IMG/VR virus record: IMGVR_UViG_3300048672_000151
Span: 1-22,516 of that record
Direction: 5' to 3' (one strand)
From: a virus
Length of the DNA stretch: 22,516 nucleotides
The notes beneath the pieces are model-generated. The model did not search any database, was not told where the DNA came from, and saw nothing but the letters and a program-made list of their open reading frames with translations. A program made the translations under genes and the position numbers. This document shows positions 2,811 to 18,500 of the stretch, piece by piece. Position 1 is the stretch's first letter; every line of letters begins with the position of its first letter.

Positions 2811-2956
2811 GCTTGTTGCCCCTTTTATTAACTCCAGTGTTGCTAGTGTGCCTTACCAATGTCTGTATGTCAATACATTCTTCTATCTATTTCTACTCAA
2901 TTGTTGTTAGACATTGTTAGGGTCTGTATAGTAGTTTCTGAGGAAACATGCAACCC

Positions 2957-2985: not shown

Positions 2986-2993
2986 TAAGTTAT

Positions 2994-4122: not shown

Positions 4123-4318
4123 ATGAACGAACAAGACTTAGTTTATCGCCTGCGGGAACGTGCTAGGATTCGTCGGCAAATTCCTACGAGGAAATCTGTG
4201 CAAGAGGGGGCAGCCTGACAGGATTGCTGATTTGTTGGAGGAGGCTGCTGAGTATATTTCACACCTTGAGGGGCGTGTTGAAGAGATGTGTGATGAACTT
4301 ATAGGGATTCTGGAATGA
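4123..4318 (+). pseudogene. Small conserved phage protein, interrupted by +1 frameshift
   Basis: ATG 4123 with GGAGG six bases upstream encodes MNEQDLVYRLRERARIRRQI, then PTRKSVQEG, and runs into TGA at 4216. Removing one G from the five-G run at 4206-4210 continues the frame as QPDRIADLLEEAAEYISHLE and a helical acidic end, stopping at TGA 4316-4318. The joined product of about 64 residues matches a small helical phage protein type I recall with the pattern RKSVQEGKPDRIADLLEEAA. The stop then overlaps the next ATG (ATGA), as expected for an intact gene. The extra base may be a sequencing error, a real mutation or a programmed +1 slip. Confidence 0.72.
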
Positions 4319-5961
4319 GTTATGAAAGGAAAGAAAAACGAATGACAAATGTTGTGAAGTATGAGCCGAAGGAAACCCTAAAGGATATTGCAGGCTTCCC
4401 GTTTGTCGACGTACCTTCTCGGGGTATCACCAAAGCCACTTGCGAGAAGTTCGGCATTCGTGCTGCTGTCAGCCAAGAGGACGGAAAGACAGTTGAGGCA
4501 TTCTACTTCCCAAGTGTAAATCAAAAGGGGAAGGTGACAGGCTATAAGAAACAAAATCTATTGTTGGATAAGAGTGAAGAAGGTCATTGGACGGCTATCG
4601 GCAGTGTCAATATCAACAACAAGTTGTTTGGTCAGGACGTTGCTGAGAAGGTTGCTCGCAAACGGGTAAGTCTGACGATCTGCGAAGGGGAGTGGGATGC
4701 TGTTAGCTGCTATCAGGCTATTGTGCACGATGTCAAGGGCACCAAGTTTGAGGGACTTGAACCGTTTGTTGTAAGCATCCCACTTGGCACAGCAAATGCC
4801 GTTGAGGCCGTCTTGCACAACAACGAGTTCGTTCATTCTTTTGATGGTTTGTCTATCTTCTTTGATGACGACTACTGCACACCGAAGGAGAAGGCCAAGG
4901 GTATCCTAAAGGGACATGAAGCCCGTGAGGCTGTTGCAGGTGCACTTGTAGGCACCTCCCTGAATCTGAGTGTGATTAGCCCTGCCAATGGCTACAAAGA
5001 CGCGTCCGATTTGATGCAAGCAGACAAGAGCACAGAACTTGCGAAGTTGGTACAATTTGGTAAGCGCCCATATTCAGCAGAGAAGATCACACACGCAGGG
5101 GATGTTAGTTTCGAGGCACTTATCGAGAAGCGACCTGAAGGGCTGCACGTACAAGCGTTTCCAGAGTTGAACCATAAAATCCACGGCTTTAGGACGCGGG
5201 AGTTGGTACTGCTTACCTCTCCTTCAGGGGTTGGCAAGAGCACTGTCACATCAATCTTCGCTGGCGCATTCATTGAGGCCGGTGAGAAGGTTGGCATGAT
5301 TTACCTTGAGGAAACAAATAAGGAAACATTGCAACGAATGGTTGCTGCAAAACTCAAGGTAAATTACAATAAGTTCAAGAATGATCCACTAGGTTGTGCC
5401 TCACGCGAGGCTATCCAAGAGGCTTATGATTCGATTGTAGATAACGACCAACTGATTATGCTTGGGCACTTCGGCAGCCTACCTATCACAGAACTCATGG
5501 CTAAAATCAAGCACATGGCTCTTGTGGAGAAGTGTGGTTACATTATCCTTGACCACCTCTCTGTAGTAATTAGCGGCTCTGCCATTGACAATGAGCGAAA
5601 AGAGTTGGATATTGTGATGACGGAACTAGCAGCATTCTGTGCAAGCAACGATGTTTGCATTATTGCTGTGTCGCACATTAACCGTGGTGACGGTACAATG
5701 TTCAAGCCCCCGAAAGGTAAAGAGAATGAGCCGTTCTGGGCACGAGTTACAAAAGAGTCCATGCGTGGGTCTGCTGCGCTTGAGCAACTTAGTTTCATCA
5801 TCCTCGGGCTAGAGCCTGAGATTCGTCCAGATCGGAAACGTGGCAATGTGCGGCTCACTGTGCTGAAGAATCGCCCTTGGGGATACCTTGGAGAAGCGGA
5901 TACGTTCTTTGTAGATGATGACACATGGGAAGTAATTCTTGTAGAAGACACCGGATTTTAA
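4315..5961 (+). CDS. TOPRIM primase/DnaB-family replicative helicase
   Basis: A 548-residue T7 gp4-like protein. Residues 120-190 form a TOPRIM domain (ICEGEWDA at 122-129, FFDDD at 182-186) expected to bind magnesium in primer synthesis. The C-terminal half is a RecA-type hexameric helicase: Walker A SPSGVGKST at 302-310, Walker B YIILDH at 409-414, and IIAVSHINR near 449-457. No N-terminal zinc finger is present, so it resembles the short T7 gp4B form. Priming ability is therefore uncertain, and recognition of priming sites may be altered or lost. ATG 4315 overlaps the preceding stop; ATG 4342 is an alternative with AAGGAA further upstream. It acts at the replication fork with the polymerase and SSB-like protein. 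Confidence 0.9.
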   Translation: MSYERKEKRMTNVVKYEPKETLKDIAGFPFVDVPSRGITKATCEKFGIRAAVSQEDGKTVEAFYFPSVNQKGKVTGYKKQNLLLDKSEEGHWTAIGSVNINNKLFGQDVAEKVARKRVSLTICEGEWDAVSCYQAIVHDVKGTKFEGLEPFVVSIPLGTANAVEAVLHNNEFVHSFDGLSIFFDDDYCTPKEKAKGILKGHEAREAVAGALVGTSLNLSVISPANGYKDASDLMQADKSTELAKLVQFGKRPYSAEKITHAGDVSFEALIEKRPEGLHVQAFPELNHKIHGFRTRELVLLTSPSGVGKSTVTSIFAGAFIEAGEKVGMIYLEETNKETLQRMVAAKLKVNYNKFKNDPLGCASREAIQEAYDSIVDNDQLIMLGHFGSLPITELMAKIKHMALVEKCGYIILDHLSVVISGSAIDNERKELDIVMTELAAFCASNDVCIIAVSHINRGDGTMFKPPKGKENEPFWARVTKESMRGSAALEQLSFIILGLEPEIRPDRKRGNVRLTVLKNRPWGYLGEADTFFVDDDTWEVILVEDTGF

Positions 5962-5974
5962 CAAAGGAGCAAAA

Positions 5975-6220
5975 ATGACATATAACACACCACTAAACCT
6001 CTACTACCGCCAAGACAAGAACACACCTGAGAAACTTCTGCTAGAGCGTCTTGAGATCATTCTTGATAAGAGTTTCAAGAGTGAATACGACCATGTAGAA
6101 GATGGCTACGGTACAGATGATATGGAAGAAGCCTATTACCACGGGGCAGAAGAAGTAAAGGAATACCTTACGGATGCACTGAAGATTTATGCTTATGAGA
6201 AGGGAGTTTATGGTGAGTAA
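5975..6220 (+). CDS. Small acidic hypothetical protein (81 aa)
   Basis: An 81-residue acidic protein starting MTYNTPLNLYYRQDKNTPEK, rich in Glu, Asp and Tyr, with helical stretches (KLLLERLEIILDKSF; EEVKEYLTDALKIYAYEKG). AAAGGAG is five bases before the ATG. It sits between helicase and polymerase and overlaps the next gene by 11 bases. No family recognised; a role in regulating replication proteins is only a guess from position. Confidence 0.65.
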   Translation: MTYNTPLNLYYRQDKNTPEKLLLERLEIILDKSFKSEYDHVEDGYGTDDMEEAYYHGAEEVKEYLTDALKIYAYEKGVYGE

Positions 6221-6452
6221 GACAGGTTATACAAGCGTAAACGATGTCACAGGGGCGCTTATGGTAAGCAAGCCTGCTACGAAAGCATACGAATCGGGAT
6301 GGGATCGGATATTCCGCAAGCAAGTATGCGAACATTGCGAGAAGCCTGTTGCAAGCGATGTGCAAGTGGAGTATAATGGTATGTTGTTCCATGAGTGGTG
6401 TTTGGACGAATGGATGCGTAACGAGAGTGATGAAATGGAGGGGCGATCTTGA
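6210..6452 (+). CDS. Small zinc-finger protein (80 aa)
   Basis: An 80-residue protein with C40-x2-C43 and H61-x2-C64 (VCEHC, then LFHEWC), the spacing of a treble-clef or LIM-like zinc site. The N-terminus is flexible and the C-terminus acidic (NESDEMEGRS). The start is ATG 6210 with AAGGGAG upstream; GTG 6213 is equally well spaced. It overlaps the gene before it by 11 bases and the polymerase after it by 4. Its place directly before the polymerase suggests a nucleic-acid or polymerase-associated role, but this is inferred. Confidence 0.62.
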   Translation: MVSKTGYTSVNDVTGALMVSKPATKAYESGWDRIFRKQVCEHCEKPVASDVQVEYNGMLFHEWCLDEWMRNESDEMEGRS

Positions 6453-8845
6453 ATAAACGTCGTTGCTGTTTCGATATTGAGTCTAGCGGCCTTTTGGATG
6501 ATAGCACTGTTGATTACACTGCTTCACCTTGGGTGCTGCGAGATACTTTTGAAGTTCATTGTATTGTTGTGATTGATATTGACAGCAACGAAGTATTCAA
6601 GTTTGTACAGGCAGAGTGTTACGAGCAATTCCCTAAGTGGGCTAAGGAAAATGTTGGCGTAATCATTGGGCATAACATTATCAACTTCGATCTACTTGCT
6701 TGCAAAGCAGCCTTCGGTATGGACTACACAGTTGGCCCGGACACTTGGCAAGGGGAGTCTGTTGAGATTATCGACACCTATGTTCTCTCCAAGACGCTGA
6801 ATCCAGATCGCCGTGGGCACTCTATGGATTACTTCGGGGAACTGCTTGGTTTGCCCAAGATTGATTGGCGTGCCAAGGCCGTTGAGATAGGATTGATTGA
6901 GGCTAACGCCCCACGAGCCGCCGAGTTCAAAACGTACCATCCAGAAATGCTTGTGTACAATGAGCGGGACGTTGTTGTGAATATAAAAACATACCGTTAC
7001 CTGATGAATGAATGGGGAGACTGGAACTGGACGGATGCCTACGAACTTGAGAAAGCTGTGGCTGAAATCATTACGCGCCAGTCCCACCGTGGCTTCTGGT
7101 TTGATAGTGACCTTGCCAAAGAAAACGTCAGAGAGCTTGATATTCTCATGGCAGAGCGTAAGGCTATTGTTGAGCCTGCTTTGCCAGCAAAGCCTATGGG
7201 CAAGACAAAACTGAAGGAGTACATTCCCGGAGCCAAGCAATTCAAGATGAACGGAGAGCCTGATGCCAACATCCACAAGTGGTGTGCCAAGCATGGGGGT
7301 ACTATCGAGAAGGTCGGTGACATCTACCAGACCACGCTGCATGGTAAGACTTACACGTTACCAATCCCGCAGGAGCCTATTGTAAGCACAGAGCCAAGCA
7401 ATATTGATGACAGCACGTTCATCAAAGGCTTCCTCGTGGAGCTTGGCTGGAAGCCTACGCAATACAAGGAGCGTGACCTTACTGTTGATACGAAGAAGCA
7501 GAAGTTGTCAGCAGAGCGCTTTGCAGAAACCGTAGAGCGTTACGTTGAACAGACTTTGAATAGCCCGTTCTGTGCAGACCGTTGTGAGCGTGTCAATTGT
7601 TCGCCTAAAGACCTTCGCACAAAGCTGCTGAAGCACGACATGAAGAAGCCGCTGAAGGTCTATACGAACCCTACATTCACTGTCGGACAGGAGAAGGAAA
7701 TTGACCCTGCGCTGGAGGAAATGAAGAGCACGTTCCCGCACGTTCAGAATATCGTTGAGTACCTGACCTATAAACACCGCAGGAATAGCATTCTCGGCGG
7801 GGGTCTTGACCCGGATGACTTGGACGAAGAAGATGACGTAACGGGCAAAGGCTTCCTTGCGAATGTGCGTTCTGATGGGCGAATCCCAACGCCAGCAGAT
7901 ACCTGTGGGGCTGCGACTGGAAGGTTTAAGCATAAGATCTGTGTAAATGTGCCTCGCGTTACTACCCTGTACGGGGAGCCAATGCGTAAGATGTTTGGTG
8001 TCGGAGATACAAAACGCTATGCACAGTTTGCTTTCGATTTCGCATCGTTAGAGAATCGTGTCCAGAGTCATTTCTGCTGGCGCTACGATGAGTCTAAAAA
8101 CTACTGTAACAGTTTGATTTTAGAGAAGCCACTTGACTCGCACACCCAAACTGCCAAGAAAGTTAGCGAGGTTATTGGGCAACTATTCTCAAGGCAGTCT
8201 GCAAAATCGGTGGGCTATGCATGTGTGTATGGAGCACAAGCTGCACGGGTTGCTAAGACCGTAGGTTGTGATTTGCACCTCGGGCAAAAGATTTTTGATG
8301 CTTTTTGGCAGGCGTCACAGCCCCTTGCTGAACTCAAGGAGCGCCTTACACAGTATTGGAAAACAACCGGGCAAAAGAAGTTTATCCTCGGACTAGACGG
8401 GAGAAAGATCAACACGCGCAGCGAGCACGCTTTGTTGAATTCATTGTTCCAAAGCTCAGGTATTATTGGGGCTAAACGAACAATGGTTTACCAAGAGAAA
8501 CTTATGGGCGAAATGGGAATCACAGTGGATTTCTGGAAAGATGATTGGAGAACAAAGTCCTACGCACAGCAGATTATGCACGCGCACGACGAAGCCCAGT
8601 TTGAAGTAACAAAGGATTTAATCCAATGGAAAATGTTCAAGGAAGAAACAGAGTGCAAAGATTTTGTTGCTAACAACCCAGAATGGGTTGGGCCGGGACG
8701 ATCTGAGCGGGGTTATTTTGCAGCATTGAGTCCAGTCAACACGGTTGTAAGAAAAGCTGTGGACTTGACAAATGCTTACTATAAGATGCGGGTTCCGCTT
8801 GCAGTTGATCCTCAGTATGGTCGCAACTGGGCAGAATGCCATTAA
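6449..8845 (+). CDS. Family A DNA polymerase with 3'-5' exonuclease (T7-like)
   Basis: A 798-residue polymerase that copies the phage genome. The proofreading domain has Exo I FDIES (D9, E11), Exo II GHNIINFD (74-81) and Exo III YNERD (170-174). The polymerase core has motif A FDFASLENR (metal ligand D530), motif B R582-x3-K586-x3-Y590 and motif C HDE (713-715). Y590 corresponds to T7 polymerase Tyr526 (Phe762 in E. coli Pol I). No 5'-3' exonuclease domain is fused; the separate gene at 12500 may supply it. The start is TTG 6449, overlapping the previous TGA (TTGA), with GGAGGGG upstream. The next in-frame ATG would remove Exo I, so TTG is well supported. The C-terminus GRNWAECH looks natural, so the following homing endonuclease does not split the gene. 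Confidence 0.93.
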   Translation: MNKRRCCFDIESSGLLDDSTVDYTASPWVLRDTFEVHCIVVIDIDSNEVFKFVQAECYEQFPKWAKENVGVIIGHNIINFDLLACKAAFGMDYTVGPDTWQGESVEIIDTYVLSKTLNPDRRGHSMDYFGELLGLPKIDWRAKAVEIGLIEANAPRAAEFKTYHPEMLVYNERDVVVNIKTYRYLMNEWGDWNWTDAYELEKAVAEIITRQSHRGFWFDSDLAKENVRELDILMAERKAIVEPALPAKPMGKTKLKEYIPGAKQFKMNGEPDANIHKWCAKHGGTIEKVGDIYQTTLHGKTYTLPIPQEPIVSTEPSNIDDSTFIKGFLVELGWKPTQYKERDLTVDTKKQKLSAERFAETVERYVEQTLNSPFCADRCERVNCSPKDLRTKLLKHDMKKPLKVYTNPTFTVGQEKEIDPALEEMKSTFPHVQNIVEYLTYKHRRNSILGGGLDPDDLDEEDDVTGKGFLANVRSDGRIPTPADTCGAATGRFKHKICVNVPRVTTLYGEPMRKMFGVGDTKRYAQFAFDFASLENRVQSHFCWRYDESKNYCNSLILEKPLDSHTQTAKKVSEVIGQLFSRQSAKSVGYACVYGAQAARVAKTVGCDLHLGQKIFDAFWQASQPLAELKERLTQYWKTTGQKKFILGLDGRKINTRSEHALLNSLFQSSGIIGAKRTMVYQEKLMGEMGITVDFWKDDWRTKSYAQQIMHAHDEAQFEVTKDLIQWKMFKEETECKDFVANNPEWVGPGRSERGYFAALSPVNTVVRKAVDLTNAYYKMRVPLAVDPQYGRNWAECH

Positions 8846-8895
8846 CATAATAAAGGTACTAGATGATTGAAACTAATGACGAATAGCGAACTGTA

Positions 8896-9399
8896 ATGTA
8901 TAAAGGACACACCACAGATAGAATGGTAAATCGTGAAGGTGTGGTGAAAAAGCGTACAGGCGAGGTGTTATTGTGGTCTAACAACGGGGCAGGCTATTTT
9001 ACAATCGGATTGAACTGGAAAGGCTCTTGTGTACGCAGGTATGTCCACCGGGTTGTGGTCGAGGCGTTCTTGCCAAATCCCGATAACCTCCCGCAAGTGA
9101 ACCACCTAGACTGCGACAAATCTAACAACCACGTCGACAATCTAGTATGGAGTACAAGAAGTGATAACATTCTTGATGCACATGCCAAGGGCCGCATGAT
9201 TAAAAGAACAACCAATGCGCAGACAACCATTCTTACCAAAGACCAAGTTATTGACCTTTACACAGCAGTAAAACGGGACGGTGTAGGCATATCGGAGAAA
9301 GCTCGTCAAATGGATATTCCGCGTACCACTGCAAGTAGTATCATAAACAAGCGCGGCCGCGAAGACATCACGGATAAATTGGATAAGGAGTTTGCATAG
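8896..9399 (+). CDS. HNH homing endonuclease with C-terminal HTH
   Basis: A 167-residue freestanding endonuclease. The HNH core spans about residues 50-90: VHRVVVEAF, then QVNHLDCDKSNNHVDNLVW, with H51 and the NH pair at 69-70 as likely metal and catalytic residues. Residues 112-150 (LTKDQVIDLY, ISEKARQMDIPRTTASSIIN) form a helix-turn-helix for DNA recognition. It lies just after the polymerase gene; homing enzymes commonly sit beside replication genes that contain their target. The ATG at 8896 lacks a strong ribosome site. Its last codons include AAG GAG, the Shine-Dalgarno for the next gene, whose GTG overlaps this TAG. Confidence 0.85.
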   Translation: MYKGHTTDRMVNREGVVKKRTGEVLLWSNNGAGYFTIGLNWKGSCVRRYVHRVVVEAFLPNPDNLPQVNHLDCDKSNNHVDNLVWSTRSDNILDAHAKGRMIKRTTNAQTTILTKDQVIDLYTAVKRDGVGISEKARQMDIPRTTASSIINKRGREDITDKLDKEFA

Positions 9400-10085
9400 T
9401 GCAAGAAGAAAAGCTAATAGATGACCCTCCACAGGAGCTAGACCTTACGTTGGTAGACAAGAACAACGTGCTTCTCTACCAACATCCCGAGGACTCCCTC
9501 TACCACAAACTCACCCTAGACCAACAACTCTTCCTATCGAAGAAACGCAGAGGCAAGGGACGTGTCCCAAAGAGTATCCTGAAGCTATGGCCCAAAGCTG
9601 ATAAGCACCTGTACGCTGACATCCTGAAGCATTGTGTAGATACCTTGATACATGCCTCTGAGGATAATGCCGTGAGGCTGGATAGGGTGTATGTGAGAAT
9701 GCGCTTGCCCTTCAACTATCGCACTAAATGTAACAAAGCATTCCCAAGACCAGTAATTGTAGGCTACGACGATTGGCATATTTATTGTCAATTCAGGGTT
9801 GACCCAATCATTGATTATCTGTATAGTATTGGGAACTCTACGTTTGATGCGAAGCAGCTTAGACGAGAACTGTGGAGCATAAGGAATGACTTTGACAAAT
9901 ACTTGTGGTACGACCAATACACAATTCCATTGTGTACGACAGAGTATTTGAATGAGGCTATTCCGCAGGCTACGATTGCCCGGACAGAGAAGGGCAAGGG
10001 AAAATGGAAGAGGACGTATGTTCATAAACGGAAGGAGAAGGAATGCGGTATCTTGGTGGAAAGTCAAAAATCAGAAAGCAAGTGA
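9399..10085 (+). CDS. Hypothetical protein (228 aa)
   Basis: A 228-residue protein starting with GTG 9399, with AAGGAG eight bases upstream inside the homing endonuclease gene. It has a lysine- and arginine-rich segment (FLSKKRRGKGRVPKSILKLW), several Trp/Tyr-rich strands (GYDDWHIYCQFRVDPIIDYL) and a strongly basic C-terminus (KGKGKWKRTYVHKRKEKE). The basic ends suggest nucleic-acid contact. No known domain was recognised. It overlaps the Dam-type methyltransferase by 43 bases and lies between polymerase and SSB-like genes, so a role in replication is plausible but unproven. Confidence 0.7.
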   Translation: MQEEKLIDDPPQELDLTLVDKNNVLLYQHPEDSLYHKLTLDQQLFLSKKRRGKGRVPKSILKLWPKADKHLYADILKHCVDTLIHASEDNAVRLDRVYVRMRLPFNYRTKCNKAFPRPVIVGYDDWHIYCQFRVDPIIDYLYSIGNSTFDAKQLRRELWSIRNDFDKYLWYDQYTIPLCTTEYLNEAIPQATIARTEKGKGKWKRTYVHKRKEKECGILVESQKSESK

Positions 10086-10783
10086 GTCAGTTTCTTGAGT
10101 CTGTGCGGAAGCAGGGTCAAGTTTATTTTGAACCGTTCACAGGAGGGGGTTGGATTCTTCAGGAAATGTCGGGGGAGCGCATTGCCTCTGACGGCAATGT
10201 TGCACTTGTTGCAATGTATAAAAGCCTGCAAGAAGGGTGGGTTCCTCCCGAGTTTGTAAGTGAGGAGGAGTGGAGACGCTGGCGGCAACACAAAGAGGTT
10301 GTCGCAGAGCCAATGATGGCGTTTTGCCGGTTTGGCTGCGGATTTGGTGGAGACTGGAACGGCGGATATGCCCGCAGCAAAGGTAGATGCTTTGCTGCGG
10401 AATCTAAGCGCGGCCTGATGAAGCAACTCCCGATGATTCAAGATGTAGAGTTTATTTATGGGTTATATCAAGACCACTCACCTAAAGGTATGCTTGTGTA
10501 TTGTGATCCTCCTTATGCAAACACTACACAGTACGGTGCCTTTGATGGATTCGATCATAAGGCTTTCTGGGAGACAATGCGTCAGTGGGTAGACAATGGC
10601 AATACAGTTGTCGTAAGTGAATATGAAGCGCCGGAAGATTTTGTTTGCGTGCGGGAGTTTATAAGCCAAATGGGGCTGTCATCAGGTGATGCTGTTACGC
10701 GCACAAGACGTATTGAGCGAGTGTTTATGCACAAATCTCAAGCGCATTTAGCAAAACCTCTTGACACACCCTCAAATCCTTGA
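10043..10783 (+). CDS. Dam-type DNA adenine methyltransferase (MethyltransfD12)
   Basis: A 246-residue adenine-N6 methyltransferase. The N-terminus RYLGGKSKI is the typical D12-class start and contacts S-adenosylmethionine. Motif I is FEPFTGGG (29-36), ASDGN (48-52) follows, and the catalytic motif IV is YCDPPY (153-158). The order I then IV places it in the alpha class, unlike the beta-class enzyme at 1139. E. coli Dam methylates GATC, but the target here cannot be read. ATG 10043 follows GAAGGAGAAGG and overlaps the previous gene. The 3' end contains the -35 of the SSB-gene promoter. It probably protects phage DNA or times replication. Confidence 0.88.
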   Translation: MRYLGGKSKIRKQVSQFLESVRKQGQVYFEPFTGGGWILQEMSGERIASDGNVALVAMYKSLQEGWVPPEFVSEEEWRRWRQHKEVVAEPMMAFCRFGCGFGGDWNGGYARSKGRCFAAESKRGLMKQLPMIQDVEFIYGLYQDHSPKGMLVYCDPPYANTTQYGAFDGFDHKAFWETMRQWVDNGNTVVVSEYEAPEDFVCVREFISQMGLSSGDAVTRTRRIERVFMHKSQAHLAKPLDTPSNP

Positions 10784-10789
10784 TATAAT
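10761..10789 (+). promoter_or_regulatory. Consensus sigma-70 promoter for the SSB-like gene
   Basis: TTGACA (10761-10766), 17 bases, then TATAAT (10784-10789): a perfect match to the host sigma-70 consensus with optimal spacing. The -35 lies inside the end of the Dam gene and the -10 begins right after its stop codon. Transcription from about 10796 gives a 100-base leader before the SSB-like gene. Confidence 0.88.
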
Positions 10790-10806
10790 GTGCGTTCTGT
10801 TGTAAC

Positions 10807-10824
10807 AAGCTGGCACAGCAGCTT
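10807..10824 (+). other. Small 5' stem-loop in the SSB-like leader
   Basis: AAGCTG (10807-10812) and CAGCTT (10819-10824) form a perfect six-base stem with a six-base loop about ten bases from the predicted transcript start. Stem-loops at the 5' end often protect an mRNA from decay. The rest of the leader shows no clear riboswitch. Confidence 0.4.
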
Positions 10825-10881
10825 TAGCAAATGCCTCTGTGTGATTCTATTAACGTGGCAAAGATGTAAGTCCACAAGTCC

Positions 10882-10898
10882 AGAAGGAGATATACATG
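10882..10898 (+). promoter_or_regulatory. T7 gene 10-like ribosome binding site
   Basis: Directly before the SSB-like start the sequence AGAAGGAGATATACAT (10882-10897) is identical, as I recall it, to 16 bases of the T7 major capsid gene leader; the ATG used here (10896) is two bases closer. It is a very strong Shine-Dalgarno and fits high expression. Confidence 0.65.
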
Positions 10899-11894
10899 GC
10901 TTTTGAAGCGTATGGTAGTACCACCACCGAATCTACCGGGAAAAGTACGGTGGATTATGATGCACTAAATCAGTATGTGGTTGAGACGGCAGCATTGCAG
11001 AACCGCGAAACGATCACAGGGTACGTGGCCGGAATCGTTGATCTGGGCTTGCAAGAACTCCCCGATGCAGAAATCCCGTTCACGGGTTCTGCGGAAGACG
11101 AGGCAAAAGAAATTGAGAAGAATCCTGACACCTACTTCGAGGACGGGTTTGACGATAAGCGTAAGCCTTGCCGCATGAAGCGTTACCCACAACGCCCACA
11201 GCAATGCGTTACGCTGGCTATTGACTTTCCTGAGATTATGCTCAACAAAGGGCAGTTCTTTGGTGACGACTCAGCCAAGGAGTTGCCACTCCGTTTGTGG
11301 CTTGGTGGGCAGTTTTATATGCAAGGCAAGGGCATGGTTGTTGGTCGTCCAATTCCTCTGCGACTTACTAATCTTGCAGAACAGGGTGCGCCTAAGAAAT
11401 GGAGCTTCAAGCCAAACCACACGTTGTACAAGATGGCACTAGGGGCTAAGATCATTAACCCCGGTGATTGCTTCCTACCAAAAGACATTGACAAGCTGAT
11501 CGGTAAAAGCCTTCAGTTTGAGGCTCAGGTTTTTATGAAGGAAAGCAAAGGTAAGTCTTACTTCACAGAGTATGTGAAGTATGTCTCCGGTCTTGGTAGG
11601 GGGCAGAAGGAACTGGCGTTGGTCTCGGACACCTTCGTTGTTCAGATGAATCAGCCGAACACCCCCAAGGCGTTGAAGGAACTGCGGAATCACATTGTAA
11701 ATACCGTCAGGATGGCTGGGAATTATGTAGGCTCGGTGTTGGAGAAAGAACTTAGTGATGCACGACCCGCTCGACAAGAAGAGGCAGAGGAGGCCACACC
11801 CCCCGCCCCCGCTCCTACACCAAAGCAGAAAACAACTCGTACTCCTGTACAGGCTCCCCCAGAGCCAGATTTTGACGATGACATTCCTTTTTGA
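10896..11894 (+). CDS. Phage single-stranded DNA-binding protein with SSB-like C-terminal tip
   Basis: A 332-residue protein whose C-terminus is PDFDDDIPF, ending in the same DFDDDIPF as the tip of E. coli SSB, which recruits DNA-repair and replication partners. A Pro/Thr-rich acidic linker (TPPAPAPTP, TPVQAPPEP) joins it to the body. The body (WLGGQFYMQGKGMVVGRP, EAQVFMKESKGKSYFTEYV) has beta-rich segments compatible with an OB-fold. The call rests on the tip, linker and position; the core is too diverged to name a family with certainty. It is set apart from the operon by its own consensus promoter, strong ribosome site and terminator, as expected for a protein needed in high copy. It would coat single strands made by the helicase and pair with the exonuclease and polymerase. 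Confidence 0.78.
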   Translation: MAFEAYGSTTTESTGKSTVDYDALNQYVVETAALQNRETITGYVAGIVDLGLQELPDAEIPFTGSAEDEAKEIEKNPDTYFEDGFDDKRKPCRMKRYPQRPQQCVTLAIDFPEIMLNKGQFFGDDSAKELPLRLWLGGQFYMQGKGMVVGRPIPLRLTNLAEQGAPKKWSFKPNHTLYKMALGAKIINPGDCFLPKDIDKLIGKSLQFEAQVFMKESKGKSYFTEYVKYVSGLGRGQKELALVSDTFVVQMNQPNTPKALKELRNHIVNTVRMAGNYVGSVLEKELSDARPARQEEAEEATPPAPAPTPKQKTTRTPVQAPPEPDFDDDIPF

Positions 11895-11916
11895 TCTAAG
11901 TCAATTATAATCCGAA

Positions 11917-11938
11917 CCCTCCCGCTTGCGCGGGAGGG
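11917..11938 (+). terminator. Hairpin terminator after the SSB-like gene
   Basis: CCCTCCCGC (11917-11925) and GCGGGAGGG (11930-11938) form a perfect 9-bp GC-rich stem with a TTGC loop, 22 bases after the stop. The following ATATTCTT is only moderately T-rich, so termination may be partial and let some transcripts reach the exonuclease. Confidence 0.7.
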
Positions 11939-11961
11939 ATATTCTTGTAGGAGCAGTGCAC

Positions 11962-12499
11962 ATGAATTTCAACAACTATTTCTTTTACGACGAGGACAGC
12001 CCAAACTATTTGAGGTGGGGGTGTTGATATTAAAGGGAACAGTAATCCAAAAACGGGAGATGTTGCTGGCTCTCTTGATAATAGAGGGTACTACAGGGTA
12101 AGAGTCAATGGCAAGCGTTACCAAATTCACAACATTATCTATTGGCTGTTTTACGGAGATATTGAAAAAGGTTTGTGTGTAGACCACATAGATCGAAACA
12201 CAACAAACAACCGACCTGCCAACTTGAGACTTATCCGGCAATCTATAAATTGTAGAAACCGAAATAAGTCTGTTAAAAACACATCTGGCGTGACAGGTGT
12301 GTTTGTTGAGAAGTACAAAGGTGTTCAAAAGTATGTCATAGCGATACACAACGACCCATAGGGGCAACACAAGAAGCGGTTCAGTATAGCGGTTCTTGGG
12401 CTTGATGTGGCATTTGCAAGGGCTGTAGAGTACCGTAAAAACTCTATTTCCCTATTGAACCAGCAAGGTGCTGGATACACAGAGAGTCACGGAGGGTAA
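11962..12499 (+). pseudogene. Broken HNH/AP2-type homing endonuclease
   Basis: ATG 11962 has AGGAG eight bases upstream and starts MNFNNYFFYDEDSPNYLRWG, then meets TGA after 21 codons. Removing one G from the five-G run at 12017-12021 continues VDIKGNSNPKTGDVAGSLDN, an HNH core (IHNIIYWLFYG, CVDHIDRNTTNN, ANLRL) and the AP2-like NTSGVTGVF. An in-frame TAG at 12359 interrupts HNDP/GQHKKRFSI. Past it the frame stays open to TAA 12497, ending GYTESHGG. The intact paralogue at 14889 has the same architecture and a similar end (GYTTTHG), so both lesions lie within a real gene. Other genes here stop at TAG, so recoding is unlikely. The TAA is followed at once by the ATG of the exonuclease, whose GGAGG lies in this gene's last codons. 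Confidence 0.85.
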
Positions 12500-13540
12500 A
12501 TGGCACAAGAAGTATTATTCGACTACGACCCGCTGTTGTATGCTTGTGGCCCCTTAGCAGAAGAACGCTTTGTCAAGGCTACAAACATTCACACAGGTGA
12601 TGCCTATGAAGTAGCCAATCGCACAGCGTTCTACGGACACTGGAAGAAAAAGCAAGGTGGGCTGCTTGCTAAGATGAACGAAGAGGCCATTAAGCCACTT
12701 ACAGCAGAAGATTTCACATACGAGGACGTACAGGAACCTACTAATGTAAAATGGGCTACAAACGCCTTGGATGCAATGATTGAGAAGGTGTTAGAGAAGT
12801 TTGGCACAAATCAATATTATGGTTATGTTGGTAAGGGTAAGGTGTTTCGCCATGATCTTGCTACTATCGTGCCCTATAAGGATGGTCGGGATAATGCACT
12901 CAAACCCTTGTGTATTGACTACCTTAAGCAATACCTTGTGAAACAACATAACGCCAAGATCATTGAAACGATTGAAGTCGACGATCAGTGCACGATTGAC
13001 AGTGTAGAAGCCTTTGCTGCGTGGAAGAAAGGTGAGCGTGAAGCCCTTGTGACAGGCGCGGTAGACAAGGATTATCGCTGCGGGCCTATTCACATGTACA
13101 ACATGAATGACGAGACTTACGATACCATTGACGGCTTTGGCAAGCTGTGGATTCAAAGCTCTGTCTCGGCCTCAGGTGCAAAGAAGCGTGAGGTGAAGGG
13201 TTGTGGACGTATCTGGCTGGTTCATCAGGTACTCAGTGGTGACGATGCTGACACGTACTGGGCTAATTCAGCTTGCCCGGAGAAGCCTTGGGGTGAAATG
13301 AGTAGCTACAACCTCTTATGTAATTGCACAACAGATAAGGAAGCGTTTGAAGCTCTTGTGCAAGGATATAAGACGTTGTACCCAGAGCCTAAAGTAATCA
13401 CAGGCTGGCGTGGAAATGAAATCGAAGTGGATTGGCTGTATGTTGCAGCAGAGAACTGGAGTCTTGCTAAGATGCTGAAGAAGCCGGGAGAGTTTGTTAC
13501 ATTGCAATCAGTCCTAACCAAACTCGGCATTAAGTATTGA
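12500..13540 (+). CDS. 5'-3' exonuclease, PIN/FEN-like
   Basis: A 346-residue protein with the acidic pattern of phage 5' nucleases: FDYDPLLY (D8, D10) at the N-terminus, VPYKDGRDN (124-132), EVDDQCTIDSVEA (159-171), a VDKDYRCG strand (188-195) and SGDDADTY (246-253), which resembles the helix-hairpin-helix-adjacent acidic cluster. These residues hold two metal ions in flap or 5'-end cutting. T7-like phages use such enzymes to remove RNA primers and degrade host DNA. The polymerase in this genome lacks a 5'-3' nuclease domain, so this gene probably supplies it. The N-terminus is intact despite the homing-endonuclease remnant directly upstream. Confidence 0.8.
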   Translation: MAQEVLFDYDPLLYACGPLAEERFVKATNIHTGDAYEVANRTAFYGHWKKKQGGLLAKMNEEAIKPLTAEDFTYEDVQEPTNVKWATNALDAMIEKVLEKFGTNQYYGYVGKGKVFRHDLATIVPYKDGRDNALKPLCIDYLKQYLVKQHNAKIIETIEVDDQCTIDSVEAFAAWKKGEREALVTGAVDKDYRCGPIHMYNMNDETYDTIDGFGKLWIQSSVSASGAKKREVKGCGRIWLVHQVLSGDDADTYWANSACPEKPWGEMSSYNLLCNCTTDKEAFEALVQGYKTLYPEPKVITGWRGNEIEVDWLYVAAENWSLAKMLKKPGEFVTLQSVLTKLGIKY

Positions 13541-13552
13541 AAGGAGAATGAA

Positions 13553-13735
13553 ATGACTGAACAAGAATTTGTTGAGACTTATTCAGGCGCAAACCTGTCT
13601 GAAGAAGATATTGCCTATCTTGCTTGCATTAAACTCGAATGGGGAAGCAACCTTGCTTACCTTGCCTCGATTTACCTTGGCGCAGGTAAGGAGTTCCTTG
13701 ATGCGCTGGACGGTCTTGATTTTGTGATTGGTTAA
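13553..13735 (+). CDS. Small hypothetical protein (60 aa)
   Basis: A 60-residue acidic protein, MTEQEFVETYSGANLSEEDI, then a Tyr/Leu/Ala-rich helical part (AYLACIKLEWGSNLAYLASIY) and an acidic end. AAAGGAG lies six bases before the ATG. It directly follows the exonuclease in the same transcript. No domain recognised. Confidence 0.65.
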   Translation: MTEQEFVETYSGANLSEEDIAYLACIKLEWGSNLAYLASIYLGAGKEFLDALDGLDFVIG

Positions 13736-13746
13736 AGGAGACCACA

Positions 13747-13812
13747 ATGGGATGGTGTAGCGGGGTCACGGGTAAGATGAGTAAAGTGTTCCAGTCTCCG
13801 AATATGTGGTGA
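13747..13812 (+). CDS. Very short reading frame starting MGWCSG (21 aa)
   Basis: ATG 13747 has GGAG six bases upstream and encodes MGWCSGVTGKMSKVFQSPNM plus W before TGA. MGWCSG is a start I recall from small phage proteins that are normally longer, so this may be a truncated copy or a short functional peptide. Its TGA is within a few bases of the next start, so it may also couple translation. Confidence 0.4.
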   Translation: MGWCSGVTGKMSKVFQSPNMW

Positions 13813-13816
13813 TGTG

Positions 13817-14014
13817 ATGAACCAAAAACAATTCACAGCACTGTCATCTCAGGGATATTTCAACCAAATCACCAGTGAATATGATTACTTCACAGCCTCC
13901 CATAGCGACTATGGCCCTATGAAATGGCCTACAGCTTTCCCTGATACGTTCAAGGAACATTGTGTGGCTGCGAAATGGTATAAGCGTTCTAAAGGCAATT
14001 GTAATAAGCGTTAA
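13817..14014 (+). CDS. Small hypothetical protein (65 aa)
   Basis: A 65-residue protein, MNQKQFTALSSQGYFNQITS then EYDYFTASHSDYGPMKWPTA, with a basic C-terminus (KWYKRSKGNCNKR). The first half is rich in aromatic and polar residues. There is no clear Shine-Dalgarno; the start overlaps the end of the 21-codon frame (TGATGTGATG) and is probably coupled to it. GTG 13814 is an alternative start. It is the last gene before the 181-base non-coding segment. Function unknown. Confidence 0.5.
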   Translation: MNQKQFTALSSQGYFNQITSEYDYFTASHSDYGPMKWPTAFPDTFKEHCVAAKWYKRSKGNCNKR

Positions 14015-14195
14015 ACGGCTTAATGGTTGTTATATGAGCTATTACGGTTTTCCGGTATTTCAAGGATTTATACGGAAAGCCGGAAACGGGACGTAGTATA
14101 TCTTGAACGTCGGCGGGGTGTTTGTTCATTATATGTTACGTTCGCTATTTGCGAATTACGAATGAACGTTCAATAATCGTGAACAAGGAGAAATT
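14015..14195 (+). other. Structured non-coding segment
   Basis: This is the longest gap within the rightward operon. TTTCCGG (14049-14055) can pair with CCGGAAA (14080-14086), or TTTCCG with the nearer CGGAAA (14073-14078): two competing hairpins. Downstream, ACGTTC (14138-14143) can pair with GAACGT (14164-14169) or with GAACGT at 14105-14110, GTTCATT (14124-14130) with AATGAAC (14161-14167), and TTCGC (14141-14145) with GCGAA (14151-14155). No tRNA, promoter or clear terminator was seen. A 20-codon frame at 14034 has no ribosome site. A structured leader or small RNA is possible. Confidence 0.4.
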
Positions 14196-14357
14196 ATGAA
14201 CAAGCTTGATAGTTACTTTGAGAAGATTAAAACTGAATCTGACTACTGGACCCTACGTCGATTGGGATTTTTATTTGAGTTTTATCCTATGGCTCCACAG
14301 TCGTGGGAGCAGCACATCATAACGCTTGCGCAGAGGGAGGCAGGTAAACTTGACTAA
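14196..14357 (+). CDS. Small hypothetical protein (53 aa)
   Basis: A 53-residue protein, MNKLDSYFEKIKTESDYWTL then a Phe/Tyr-rich helical core and QREAGKLD at the end. AAGGAG is six bases before the ATG (14196). It follows the structured segment and overlaps the TTG of the next gene (TTGACTAA), so the two are coupled. No domain recognised. Confidence 0.62.
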   Translation: MNKLDSYFEKIKTESDYWTLRRLGFLFEFYPMAPQSWEQHIITLAQREAGKLD

Positions 14358-14892
14358 GGAGCCTTGGGAAGAACACCCTGACGTGTGGCCCACAAAAGCT
14401 AAATTCTTTGCTTGGCTTCGGGGCTGCTTCAGGCGGGCTATCTGGAACCTTTCCCCTTGTAAGATTAAGTTCAAGAACGCCCACTGCTCCCCTCCACCTG
14501 AAGGTTACAAAGGTAAAGCCAAGAGTGGTGCTAACTGTGCACTAACAGGAGAGTGGGAAGGAAAGAGCAAACTTGAGGTTGATCACATCCAAGGAGAATG
14601 TTCGCTGCGTGACTGGGACGATGTTGCTACATTTGTTCGTCACTTGTGCCCACCTAACGACAATTTGCAACTTGTGACGAAGGAAGCACACAAGATAAAG
14701 ACCTTAGCAGAGCGTAAAGGTATCTCATTCGAGGCCGCATTACTGGAGAAGAGGGTAATTGCCTTTGCAAAACTCCCAGCAGCACAACAAATAAAAGTGT
14801 TGCAAGAAAGTGACAAGTGTGGTAAAATGGCTGCTACAAATGCAAAGAGCAGAGTGGCGTTATATAGGCAGATTATTGAGGCGGGTAAATGA
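14350..14892 (+). CDS. HNH endonuclease of the phage replication module
   Basis: A 180-residue protein with WPTKAKFFAWLRGCFRRA at its N-terminus and the HNH core VDHIQGECSLRDWDD (77-91), N105-L and AHKIKT (113-118). This resembles a conserved endonuclease often found next to the 5' exonuclease in siphophages, which probably processes branched or packaged DNA; it is not a typical homing enzyme. The usual first-strand cysteines are partly replaced (C63 remains in ANCALTG), so zinc binding is uncertain. The start is TTG 14350, with GGGAGG nine bases upstream and overlapping the previous stop; TTG 14326 is the alternative. Confidence 0.72.
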   Translation: MTKEPWEEHPDVWPTKAKFFAWLRGCFRRAIWNLSPCKIKFKNAHCSPPPEGYKGKAKSGANCALTGEWEGKSKLEVDHIQGECSLRDWDDVATFVRHLCPPNDNLQLVTKEAHKIKTLAERKGISFEAALLEKRVIAFAKLPAAQQIKVLQESDKCGKMAATNAKSRVALYRQIIEAGK

Positions 14893-15422
14893 ACGATTGG
14901 CACGAGGTTTTCACGTACTCAGAGGGGAGTCCGTCTGGGTTAGTGTGGAAACAATCCAAGTATTTGCATGTGAGATATAAAGCTGGACAGCCTGTTGGGA
15001 CGGTTTGTCCTGATGGGTATTGGAGGGTGATGGTAAATCGGATGAGAGTTCATCTCCACCGATGTGTTTATGAAATGTTCTATGGTAAAATACCAGATGG
15101 TAAAGTAATTGACCACATAGACGGCAACAGAAAAAACAACGTGATTTCCAACCTACGATTATTGGACAAATCTGAAAATACACGCAACTGTAAAAAACGA
15201 GAGGACAATACGTCAGGGGAAACAGGTGTGTATAAGACGGGCGGTAAATGGGTGGCAGACTGGCGCAACAGTGACGGTAAAAGGGTATCTGCGAGGTTTT
15301 CCGTGACCAAGTATGGTTATGAACTCGCCTATAGATTAGCTGTTGCTGTAAGAAAAGAAGCTGAAATCTCGCTGTTGAGTAACATCAAGGGCTATACAAC
15401 AACACATGGACGAAGGGAGTAA
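14889..15422 (+). CDS. HNH homing endonuclease with AP2-like domain
   Basis: A 177-residue protein: N-terminal YSEGSPSGLVWK motif, HNH core with H57 (HLHRCVYEMFYG) and VIDHIDGNRKNN at 73-84, SNLRLL, then an AP2-like DNA-binding part (NTSGETGVYK, a KWVADW strand, ARFSV). It is the intact relative of the broken gene at 11962. The ATG overlaps the previous stop (ATGA). The final codons supply the Shine-Dalgarno (AAGGGAG) for the exonuclease gene starting two bases after the TAA. These enzymes cut homologous unoccupied sites so that the gene is copied into them. Confidence 0.85.
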   Translation: MNDWHEVFTYSEGSPSGLVWKQSKYLHVRYKAGQPVGTVCPDGYWRVMVNRMRVHLHRCVYEMFYGKIPDGKVIDHIDGNRKNNVISNLRLLDKSENTRNCKKREDNTSGETGVYKTGGKWVADWRNSDGKRVSARFSVTKYGYELAYRLAVAVRKEAEISLLSNIKGYTTTHGRRE

Positions 15423-15424
15423 TT

Positions 15425-16327
15425 ATGGAAGATTGGAAGGTAGCGGCAAGTTTGCTGAATGATGGTTCCCGTTCTTGGCGTGCAATTGCCAAGGCTCTTG
15501 GTGTAGCGAAGTCCACTGTATCGGATTATCTTCGTAGCACTACCTCCAGTGAGGTAGCGGTAACACAGAAGGTACTTTTACTGGATATTGAGACTGCGCC
15601 CACGTCGGCCTATGTATGGGGGCGCTGGAAGCAAAACGTGGGGTTGAGTCAGGTGGTGTCCGAGGGCTATATGCTCACCTACTCTGCAAAGTGGCTTGGG
15701 GACGATTTGATTATGTGCAATCGTATCAAGCGCCCGGAAGACGATAAAACCCTTGTCGAAGAACTTGCTGCACTTATTGACCAAGCAGATTTGATTGTTG
15801 CACACAACCTTGTAAAATTTGACTGGCCCACAATTAAGACCCGCATGGTGTATCATAATATGCCTCCACCAAAACCTGTGCGTGTTGTGGATACGCTTCA
15901 GATTGCTAAGAAGGCTTTCCGCTTCCCAAGCAACAGTCTTGACAGCATTGCTGCGTATCTCGGCCTTGAGCGTAAGTTGCAAAACTCTGGTATGGATTTG
16001 TGGATTCGTTCTATGCGCCTTGAGGACGCAGCAATGGAAGACATGCTTGAATACAACCGACAAGACGTATTGGTGCTTGAACAAGTGTATGAGCGACTTG
16101 CCCCTTGGTATAATCAGCATCCGTCTGTAGCAGTTTTGTATGATGATGGTAAGCAACATTGTCCGTTATGCGGGGGAACCAATCTTTCCAAGATGGATAA
16201 GAGTGCTTTCACAAACAATAGTGAATTTGACGCTTTCCGTTGTGGTGATTGCGGCAAAGTGAGCCGTAGCAAACAGAATCTTCGTGGCAAGGAAAGCATG
16301 AAGAACACCCTCGTAAATGTAATGTAA
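15425..16327 (+). CDS. DnaQ-like DEDDy exonuclease with HTH and zinc ribbon
   Basis: A 300-residue protein with three parts. Residues 6-38 (SWRAIAKALGVAKSTVSDYL) form a helix-turn-helix. Residues 50-220 form an RNase H-like 3'-5' exonuclease with Exo I DIET (D54, E56), Exo II HN (127-128) and D133, and Exo III Y210 with D214. Residues 246-276 form a zinc ribbon (CPLCGG, then RCGDCG). The DEDDy set should hydrolyse single strands from the 3' end. Phage relatives of the exonuclease are common, but the added DNA-binding ends suggest sequence- or structure-directed action. The polymerase already has proofreading, so this enzyme may act in recombination, host DNA breakdown or repair. AAGGGAG lies six bases before the ATG. 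Confidence 0.82.
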   Translation: MEDWKVAASLLNDGSRSWRAIAKALGVAKSTVSDYLRSTTSSEVAVTQKVLLLDIETAPTSAYVWGRWKQNVGLSQVVSEGYMLTYSAKWLGDDLIMCNRIKRPEDDKTLVEELAALIDQADLIVAHNLVKFDWPTIKTRMVYHNMPPPKPVRVVDTLQIAKKAFRFPSNSLDSIAAYLGLERKLQNSGMDLWIRSMRLEDAAMEDMLEYNRQDVLVLEQVYERLAPWYNQHPSVAVLYDDGKQHCPLCGGTNLSKMDKSAFTNNSEFDAFRCGDCGKVSRSKQNLRGKESMKNTLVNVM

Positions 16328-16338
16328 AGGAGAAACAA

Positions 16339-16512
16339 ATGAATTCAATTTGGTTCGTAGAAACAAAAATCGCGGGGCAATACATCCCGCACACAGCAGA
16401 ACGCAGCCGTGACGATGCACGAGCATTGCAGAAGTATTTGAAGGCTATCCGGCAGATTGGTGTTCCCTCTCGTATCCGTCGTTATACACCTGACAACATT
16501 AGCCGAGGCTGA
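16339..16512 (+). CDS. Small basic hypothetical protein (57 aa)
   Basis: A 57-residue basic protein, MNSIWFVETKIAGQYIPHTA then a charged helical stretch (ERSRDDARALQKYLKAIRQI) and IRRYTPDN at the end. AAAGGAG lies six bases before the ATG at 16339. The helix has alternating basic and acidic residues and may bind a partner. No domain recognised. Confidence 0.65.
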   Translation: MNSIWFVETKIAGQYIPHTAERSRDDARALQKYLKAIRQIGVPSRIRRYTPDNISRG

Positions 16513-16515
16513 TTT

Positions 16516-16794
16516 GTGATAGCACAAGAACAGATTCCAATAATCCCTTGTGCTATCGCGCTGGATAATGAGAGGAAGATGATTGCTTTTAATCGCCCCC
16601 CTTCTCTGCCGATCTTTGTGGATATTCGTGGGAACATTACAGCAATGTGGGATAAGAAAGTGTTGAAGATAGACGAGCAAGAATACGCTTATAACACTTT
16701 CTTTTCCGTTGCGGATAGTAATTCTGTTCTTCATAAGTATTTCAAAGAACTAATTATCTCAGACCGCCAAGAGCCTGTGGTGTTCAGTTTTTAA
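16516..16794 (+). CDS. Hypothetical protein (92 aa)
   Basis: A 92-residue protein starting with GTG 16516, with GAGG seven bases upstream and three bases after the previous stop. It is beta-rich and hydrophobic in places (IPIIPCAIALDNERKMIAFN, then LPIFVDIRGNITAMW). It ends FSF directly before the ribosome site of the MazG-like gene. No domain recognised; a small beta-barrel is plausible. Confidence 0.55.
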   Translation: MIAQEQIPIIPCAIALDNERKMIAFNRPPSLPIFVDIRGNITAMWDKKVLKIDEQEYAYNTFFSVADSNSVLHKYFKELIISDRQEPVVFSF

Positions 16795-16803
16795 GGAGAA
16801 CTA

Positions 16804-17271
16804 ATGCAACAAGCATACCAAGACGTTGTACAATTTCAAACATACTGCGGCAAGCTGGATTCTGTTGCAGATAAAACTGCGTTGCTTCAGCAGGCTATGT
16901 TAATTGTTGAAGAAGCAAATGAGCTTTACGATGCCATTATGGATGAGCAGGGCGGTGAGCAAATTCTGAAGGAAACTTGTGATAACCTTGTTGTTCTATT
17001 CGGCATGGTGGCTATGCTACAGCGTAGCGGATACCGTGTTACAGAAGCTATGAAGGCTGTGTGCGATAATAACATGAGCAAGTTTTCCACTACGCAAACA
17101 GATGGCGCTTATACATTAGCCGCTTATGAAGCCACTGAACTAGGCTTTTTTACGCTAAAGCAAGTTGATTTCAATAAGTGGGGCGTGTTTGACAATAACG
17201 ACAAGCTACGCAAGCCGATTGGCTATACTAAATGTTCTGTCCAACAATTTATTCCACAAGGAGGTATGTAA
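16804..17271 (+). CDS. MazG-like nucleotide pyrophosphohydrolase
   Basis: A 155-residue protein with the all-alpha NTP-PPase signature: EEANE at 36-40 and, 17 residues on, ETCD at 57-60, supplying the E-E-x-x-E and E-x-x-D metal ligands. The C-terminal third (GFFTLKQVDFNKWGVFDNND) looks like an added small domain. MazG-type enzymes remove pyrophosphate from non-canonical or excess NTPs. In phages they may clear damaged nucleotides or lower alarmone levels. AAGGAG is six bases from the ATG and the stop overlaps the next start (TAATG). Confidence 0.75.
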   Translation: MQQAYQDVVQFQTYCGKLDSVADKTALLQQAMLIVEEANELYDAIMDEQGGEQILKETCDNLVVLFGMVAMLQRSGYRVTEAMKAVCDNNMSKFSTTQTDGAYTLAAYEATELGFFTLKQVDFNKWGVFDNNDKLRKPIGYTKCSVQQFIPQGGM

Positions 17272-17549
17272 TGAAATACGTTAAGCAAGCAGGGAGTGTG
17301 TGGGATACCTATTACGCCATTGATGACGACAACCTTGCCGTATCTGCCGTGGAGGCTCGTTATACCGATGCCACCAAGACTTATATTGAGACATACCTGA
17401 TTACCAATTACAACGCCTCTCGTGGCACGTATGACGGCATTGCCCGTGATAGCCTCGCTGATCTGGACAAGATTACACAGAAGGAGTGGAACGAGGCCAA
17501 GAAGGATTGTCTGGCATTTATCAAATACGTAGAGGGCCAAAGCCAATGA
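17271..17549 (+). CDS. Hypothetical protein (92 aa)
   Basis: A 92-residue acidic protein, MKYVKQAGSVWDTYYAIDDD then beta-rich YTDATKTYIETYLITNYNAS and a helical end (WNEAKKDCLAFIKYVEGQ). ATG 17271 overlaps the previous stop (TAATG), with AAGGAGG seven bases upstream, so it is preferred over the earlier in-frame start at 17232. No domain recognised. Confidence 0.62.
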   Translation: MKYVKQAGSVWDTYYAIDDDNLAVSAVEARYTDATKTYIETYLITNYNASRGTYDGIARDSLADLDKITQKEWNEAKKDCLAFIKYVEGQSQ

Positions 17550-18076
17550 TGAAGCGTGTTTCATTCTCAGATGTTCTCCATCTTCATCCTTTCAAAGGCA
17601 TGAACCAATTTGATCTTCTGCCACCAAAAATGGATAGCAATACCTTCCCCTATCTGTTCAAAATGGGTGTAGATATTGATAAGCCAGTACATGTGCAGGG
17701 CTGTCTGCACCGTAACCTCGAAGGTTATCAAGTGATGGGCTACAGCTACATTGGCCTTGAGCGTCAGGACAAGCCTTGGCTCAACAGTCGTCATAGCAGC
17801 CTTCAGGCCCGTATTGCTGCACAGAAAGACACAGAGCTTCGTGCCGATATGATTAATGCTTCAAGGGAGGGTTTAGATTGGGCAGCCTTCAAGAAAATGG
17901 CTGTGATGTCTGCGGGTAAAGACGGCACCACAAGTCACACAGGGCCACTTGAGCCGGAAGAAACGTATGAAGAAGATATTGCAACAATGACCACCCTTCG
18001 CTCCTTGCAGATTACCATTCGTGGGCCTCTGCACCCAGACGAAGATATGATAAACCCGCCACAAGGAATCGCATAA
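17546..18076 (+). CDS. Hypothetical protein (176 aa)
   Basis: A 176-residue protein, MMKRVSFSDVLHLHPFKGMN then MGVDIDKPVHVQGCLHRNLE and GYQVMGYSYIGL. It has a charged middle and an acidic, Thr-rich C-terminal region (EPEETYEEDIATMTTLRSLQ). The start is ATG 17546 or the adjacent ATG 17549; GAGGG lies nine bases upstream and the previous TGA overlaps (ATGA). Conserved-looking HxH and C positions could bind metal. No family recognised. Confidence 0.6.
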   Translation: MMKRVSFSDVLHLHPFKGMNQFDLLPPKMDSNTFPYLFKMGVDIDKPVHVQGCLHRNLEGYQVMGYSYIGLERQDKPWLNSRHSSLQARIAAQKDTELRADMINASREGLDWAAFKKMAVMSAGKDGTTSHTGPLEPEETYEEDIATMTTLRSLQITIRGPLHPDEDMINPPQGIA

Positions 18077-18201
18077 TGAAAGAAGCCCTTTACGGAATGG
18101 TAGGAGTTGTGTTAGGTGCTTTGAGCATCTGTTACTCCATTGCTTTTCTTGCAACCCCTGCTGTCGTATTCTTGGCAGCAATCAAATATCTCAACTCTTA
18201 A
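18076..18201 (+). CDS. Small membrane protein (41 aa)
   Basis: A 41-residue protein, MKEALYGMVGVVLGALSICY then SIAFLATPAVVFLAAIKYLN, which is almost entirely one hydrophobic segment of 25-30 residues. It overlaps the previous stop (TAATG), with AAGGAA upstream. It could be a small holin-like, superinfection-exclusion or lysis-timing membrane protein, but nothing in the sequence decides this. Confidence 0.6.
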   Translation: MKEALYGMVGVVLGALSICYSIAFLATPAVVFLAAIKYLNS

Positions 18202-18216
18202 TCGAAAGGAATAAAT

Positions 18217-18456
18217 ATGACTACATTGAATTCTACCCAACGTGACGCCCTGAAGCCCTTCAAGGTTGAAGCCTACAGCTACTACACCGAGGCCGATGCT
18301 ATTAAGGAGAATCTGAAAGACCTCGTTGAAGCTGCTGCCGAAAAGACTGGCATTGACAAGAAGATTGTAGCAAAGCACTTCGCTGTATCGTATAAGGGCA
18401 CCCTTGATGATCTGAACGAGGAAGTGAGTAATCTGAATTTCCTTGCAGAAGACTAA
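18217..18456 (+). CDS. DsbA-like phage double-stranded DNA-binding protein
   Basis: A 79-residue acidic helical protein, MTTLNSTQRDALKPFKVEAY, with the core LKDLVEAAAEKTGIDKKIVA then KHFAVSYKGTLDDLNEEV. This resembles the small T4 DsbA-type family, annotated as a double-stranded DNA-binding protein affecting late transcription. The match is by pattern and is moderate. AAAGGA lies nine bases before the ATG. It is the last gene of the rightward block, just before the terminator. Confidence 0.6.
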   Translation: MTTLNSTQRDALKPFKVEAYSYYTEADAIKENLKDLVEAAAEKTGIDKKIVAKHFAVSYKGTLDDLNEEVSNLNFLAED

Positions 18457-18463
18457 ACGAAAA

Positions 18464-18500
18464 GAAGCCCTACACCTCTCGGTGTAGGGCTTTGTTTTTA
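18464..18500. terminator. Strong bidirectional terminator
   Basis: AGCCCTACACC (18466-18476) and GGTGTAGGGCT (18481-18491) form a perfect 11-bp stem with a TCTC loop. On the right side TTGTTTTT follows; on the left strand the reverse reading gives TTCTTTTC. It thus stops rightward transcripts after the DsbA-like gene and leftward transcripts after the tail fibre gene, whose TAA (18500-18498) lies in the T-run. Confidence 0.92.

Follow-up and report, generated by a model that had tools for sequence, protein, structure and literature searches.

RNase III cleaves hairpin sites in the early mRNA of phage T7, cyanophages carry elements resembling the glutamine riboswitch (RF01739), and some phages hold slots of gene exchange accompanied by free-standing HNH endonuclease genes. 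These are the described systems closest to the locus considered here, an interval of 181 bases inside the replication and recombination operon of a virus whose whole IMG/VR record (22,516 bases, class linear) was analysed and is called the window below. The operon lies on the + strand, spans 4315 to 18456, and its content also includes a primase-helicase, a DNA polymerase, an HNH endonuclease and a methyltransferase. The interval (hereafter the gap) is set among the following features.

12500–13540, + strand: exonuclease gene (PHROG 107), upstream border of a variable slot
13814–14014, + strand: 66-aa ORF, upstream neighbour of the gap, with gene-like codon usage and no known relatives
14015–14195, no strand assigned: non-coding gap of 181 bases, from the ORF stop at 14014 to the ATG at 14196, with no coding signal in six frames
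14187–14192, + strand: ribosome-binding-site-like AAGGAG, recognised in the sequence, preceding the ATG at 14196
14196–14357, + strand: 53-aa ORF, downstream neighbour of the gap, with gene-like codon usage and no known relatives
14326–14892, + strand: HNH endonuclease gene (PHROG 1985), downstream border of the variable slot
14889–15422, + strand: HNH-AP2 endonuclease
15425–16327, + strand: RNase H-fold protein of 300 aa

The initial annotation described a gene-free segment within a tightly packed operon, and the borders that it gave are exact, with the 66-aa ORF ending at 14014 and the next ATG standing at 14196. Its picture of neighbouring genes that overlap or nearly touch applies locally, from 13540 to 18456 (except for a 78-base interval with a 21-codon frame), but the same operon also has a gap of 112 bases, which holds a consensus promoter, and another of 605 bases, which holds a terminator and an HNH remnant. 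At the far end, the + strand operon closes with a terminator-like hairpin (18464–18493, 13 pairs followed by a T run, reading on both strands). Positions 14175–14187 and 14192–14204, in the start-codon region of the 53-aa ORF, form a direct repeat (85%) of AATCGTGAACAAG, which is perhaps a small duplication.

The gap is non-coding. Its best open frame has a codon-usage score of −0.165 per codon; windows taken from real genes average 0.27 (sd 0.12) and wrong frames −0.39 (sd 0.17). An unannotated small protein is very unlikely: a 49-aa frame started by TTG (14027–14176) and a 46-aa frame started by ATG on the − strand (13989–14129) are both open, but the codon usage of both is at the noncoding level, no ribosome-binding site is seen ahead of either start, relatives of neither frame were found by search, and the 50-codon stop-free run in the gap is equalled in length by 19% of shuffles. 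On codon usage, absent relatives and the chance-level open run, a coding gene in the gap was rejected. Searches for relatives of the 66-aa and 53-aa ORFs, the scope of which included viral contigs and the records of 20 relatives (the latter without a positive control), returned none, the one match that surfaced for these small flanking ORFs being at chance level (E 0.2). The genome-contig search with the RNase H-fold protein and the viral-contig search with the DNA polymerase were also empty.

What occupies the same place in related phages was established from 12 loci in which both border genes, exonuclease and HNH endonuclease, were found, with ORFs counted from 50 aa upwards. In 12 of the 12 relatives such ORFs fill the slot, leaving at most 9 bases uncovered vs. 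181 here, and a non-coding hole occurs, among the loci compared, only in this phage. These figures depend on the cut-off: at 40 aa, the gap is largely occupied by the 49-aa TTG frame, and no uncovered stretch of the window is then longer than 78 bases. Regarding content, the slot holds an ORF of 312 aa in L014 and L015, of 319 aa in L016 and L018, and of 321 aa in L023 (the latter methyltransferase-like, as read from its sequence), while the other relatives have one or more small ORFs. Because these contents vary among relatives, the slot can be regarded as a place of gene exchange. L014 and L015, as well as L016 and L018, are close to each other, so that there are fewer independent cases than 12. 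Left out of the count were loci with values identical to those of a retained one (L003 and L005, as L004; L013, as L012; L017, as L018), those where the exonuclease and the PHROG 1985 HNH gene were not both matched (L006, L008–L011 and L022), and L024–L033.

Gene decay is demonstrable, by sequence comparison, in the gap's own operon: an interrupted HNH copy at about 12050–12493, 1.5 kb upstream of the gap, shares 42% identity with the HNH-AP2 gene, which is intact. This interrupted copy directly follows a strong terminator-like hairpin (11917–11938). For the gap itself, the searches used brought up no DNA relatives among viral contigs, genomes, phages and plasmids, nor any for 12500–16500 in the phage collection. 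When the gap was compared with the whole records of the 20 relatives, weak matches appeared in 6 of them (best E 0.034, 38 bases at 76%), but these do not rise above chance and fall in different places along the query; an 18-base pattern match in L034 falls in apparent coding sequence and was likewise taken as chance. Within the window, the best self-match pairs 14120–14149 with 8882–8912 on the other strand (81% over 31 bases, E 0.04), the latter being the start region of an HNH gene at 8896; it is too weak for the gap to be a repeat of another site.

Traces of a former gene were sought by comparing the translated gap with the related loci and the proteins of the window with the gap, and by tblastn of the gap's frames against phages; no convincing match resulted, and none of the slot genes of the relatives shares sequence with the gap. 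Two points of the initial annotation are borne out in part. It had proposed a remnant of a lost element as one possible reading, with which the filled slots of the relatives agree, but no protein-level likeness to an intact gene was found; it had also named, as a refutation of its view, a relative carrying a gene at this position whose decay explains the segment, and genes do stand there in relatives, but the decay of any particular one is unsupported, as none has the gap sequence.

With a confidence barely above even, we favour the reading of the gap as a non-coding spacer that gene turnover left behind in the variable slot and that now serves as the leader of the 53-aa ORF. Phages of this kind would gain and lose small genes between the exonuclease and HNH endonuclease genes; such turnover most likely left the gap, either as a former gene or as an exchange junction, decayed past recognition. 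The spacer would presumably be transcribed with the operon, thereby forming the leader of the 53-aa ORF, and its hairpins may slightly influence mRNA processing or translation. Since no sequence trace of a former gene was found, we infer its loss from position alone, and since no slot gene matches the gap, the remnant reading draws on position and precedent. Two observations count against a plain spacer: the mild excess of structure and complementarity described below, which a plain remnant does not need, and the distance of the relatives compared, as the protein relatives reached are just 25–59% identical.

The repeats listed by the initial annotation are all present (TTTCCGG at 14049–14055, CGGAAA at 14073 and 14081, ACGTTC at 14138, GAACGT at 14105 and 14164). 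The gap has 14 six-base complementary pairs vs. 5.6 in dinucleotide shuffles, a number reached by 1% of 2000 shuffles and by 0.5% of 745 window segments, and three of its six-mers have at least two partners vs. 0.49 in shuffles (reached by 3.6% of shuffles and 1.3% of segments). The fold energy is −49 kcal/mol for the + strand and −29 kcal/mol for the − strand. On the + strand, the fold tool gives a z-score of −2.18 (equalled or bettered by 5 of 200 shuffles) and a separate set of 80 shuffles gives −3.04, a value at least matched by 7 of 233 windows from the operon, while 6% of 1117 windows fold equally well after correction for GC content. Given these proportions of comparably folding windows, the structure of the gap is real and mildly above chance, yet not exceptional. 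Moreover, the difference in folding between the strands (−19.6 kcal/mol) compares with a shuffle mean of −15.6 kcal/mol and is exceeded by 15% of shuffles, which indicates that the strand bias is largely compositional, the + strand being G+T-rich. The strongest folding of the window for its GC content is located elsewhere, on the − strand at 2941–3200 (up to z −4.0 at 2961), in a mostly gene-free region separating the − and + strand gene blocks. The structural elements predicted in and around the gap are as follows.

14021–14044, + strand: hairpin H1, 8 pairs, dominant in short contexts only
14045–14082, + strand: hairpin H2, the most stable RNA element, predicted by folding, −15.5 kcal/mol alone
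14089–14143, + strand: hairpin H3, 13 + 6 pairs, predicted by folding, −17.6 kcal/mol alone
14122–14132, + strand: candidate anti-start segment TTGTTCATTAT, an inverted repeat 91% complementary to 14193–14203
14193–14203, + strand: ATTATGAACAA, start codon region of the 53-aa ORF, partner of 14122–14132

A regulatory RNA had been proposed in the initial annotation on the basis of at least two sets of mutually exclusive pairings. In the ensemble computed for the gap alone, TTTCCG has the first CGGAAA copy as its partner at a probability of 0.90–0.97, while the switch of TTTCCGG to the second copy does not exceed 0.03; ACGTTC pairs with the two GAACGT copies at 0.00 and 0.02, its main partner being GGACGT (14089–14094) within H3. 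At such low probabilities (at most 0.03), the proposed alternatives are hardly populated. What stands of the proposal is a non-coding and slightly over-structured segment, whereas the named alternatives are nearly empty and no Rfam family corresponds to it.

A functional RNA may nevertheless be considered in another form, as a cis-acting element serving the downstream genes as a leader or processing site, a possibility that we regard as doubtful. According to this model, H2 would be a fixed hairpin and H3 may form first, with the start codon of the 53-aa ORF still accessible, after which a longer transcript may pair 14122–14132 with 14193–14203 and mask that start codon; as a variant, H3 could be a processing site, by analogy with the RNase III cuts in T7 early mRNA. 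Beyond the two fold z-scores and the excess of six-base complements, the model is consistent with the behaviour of the hairpins: H2 keeps a mean pair probability of 0.73–0.98 across all contexts folded, H3 is dominant without the downstream gene and mostly lost once the RNA extends beyond about 14260, and the helix 14122–14132/14193–14203, which excludes H3, emerges when downstream sequence is added. Furthermore, when 20 starts of the window were compared, this one had the top anti-start complement score, 8, vs. 5–7 for the rest. On the other hand, this score is reached by 8% of shuffled leaders and the probability of the helix is just 0.00–0.53, varying with the stretch folded, so that the pairing is not clearly beyond chance; the operon and GC-corrected windows that fold equally well and the largely compositional strand bias also argue against a leader function. 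A translation switch peculiar to this lineage of phages, in which H3 would hold TTGTTCATTAT early and TTGTTCATTAT would then pair with the start region, allowing a brief synthesis of the 53-aa product, seems to us quite improbable. No RNA family with a start-codon switch of such a kind is described in Rfam 15, and nothing found demands a dedicated switch. Were the start-codon pairing true, it would add to the phage operons in which RNA structure controls timing.

The gap could instead act at the DNA level, as an operator or weak promoter on the GAAC/GTTC palindromes of 14105–14185, on either strand. We consider such a control site unlikely. The gap does contain six GAAC/GTTC words vs. 1.6 expected (about 1% of windows are equal) and a promoter-like TTCGCA-16-TATAAT on the − strand (10 of 12 positions), but the half-sites are irregularly spaced and promoter-like sites are not enriched, with 28 vs. 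22.9 (sd 4.0) in shuffles. The phage's likely promoters also score higher, at 11–12 of 12 (10761–10789, 3326–3355 and 3241–3269). The first of these is a perfect sigma-70 consensus promoter (TTGACA-17-TATAAT with TG) ahead of the gene at 10896, and the two sites with 11 of 12, at 3326–3355 and 3269–3241, lie one on each strand.

Known RNA elements were looked for in the gap with the same outcome throughout: Rfam 15 gives no family match, its three sub-threshold matches (15.6–16.7 bits, far below gathering) being attributable to chance, ARAGORN finds no tRNA or tmRNA, and no intrinsic terminator (GC-rich hairpin followed by a T run) is reported within it. A known RNA family, a tRNA and a terminator were therefore all rejected for the gap. 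One likeness to described non-coding DNA emerged from the searches, and it concerns a single stretch.

14136–14171, no strand assigned: palindromic stretch, the − strand of which resembles hairpins in cyanophages S-PM2 and DSL-LC03 and in a Caballeronia plasmid

This stretch is 88.9% identical over 36 bases (E 3e-4 to 1e-3) to a non-coding segment of S-PM2. In both cyanophages the segment lies inside an RF01739-like element, those of S-PM2 and DSL-LC03 scoring 33.3 and 34.2 bits for that family, just under its gathering score of 35, and S-CREM1 carries a riboswitch annotation at a related place. We note that the two riboswitch-like elements (L035:2979–3080 and L036:2979–3035) precede small genes of S-PM2 and DSL-LC03 and are unannotated in those records. 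At face value, the identity might point to a degenerate glutamine riboswitch on the − strand of the gap, but we give this reading almost no credence: cmscan with RF01739 against 14015–14195 yields no match at E up to 5, no − strand gene with a coding signal lies downstream, and the likeness is limited to the palindromic hairpin, which is shared with the Caballeronia plasmid, where it sits upstream of merR. After checking annotation and Rfam, we attribute the cyanophage and Caballeronia likeness of 14136–14171 to convergence or chance in a palindromic hairpin.

If the gap is a spacer, its significance is limited to illustrating how genes turn over between the conserved recombination and repair genes of phages. 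Compared with the RF01739 elements of cyanophages, it has in common a palindromic hairpin of about 30 bases, as found in S-PM2 and DSL-LC03, but the family model fails on it and the likeness is on the strand opposite to the genes. The sites that RNase III cuts in T7 early mRNA are similar in being hairpins of 13–19 pairs between genes of one operon, but their location is not comparable, and the predicted hairpins of the gap are without conservation. With regard to phage gene-exchange slots bearing free-standing HNH endonucleases, a non-coding hole here fills part of the slot and the gap itself is without an endonuclease trace, but the two have in common a variable content between conserved exonuclease and endonuclease genes, with HNH genes and an HNH remnant nearby.
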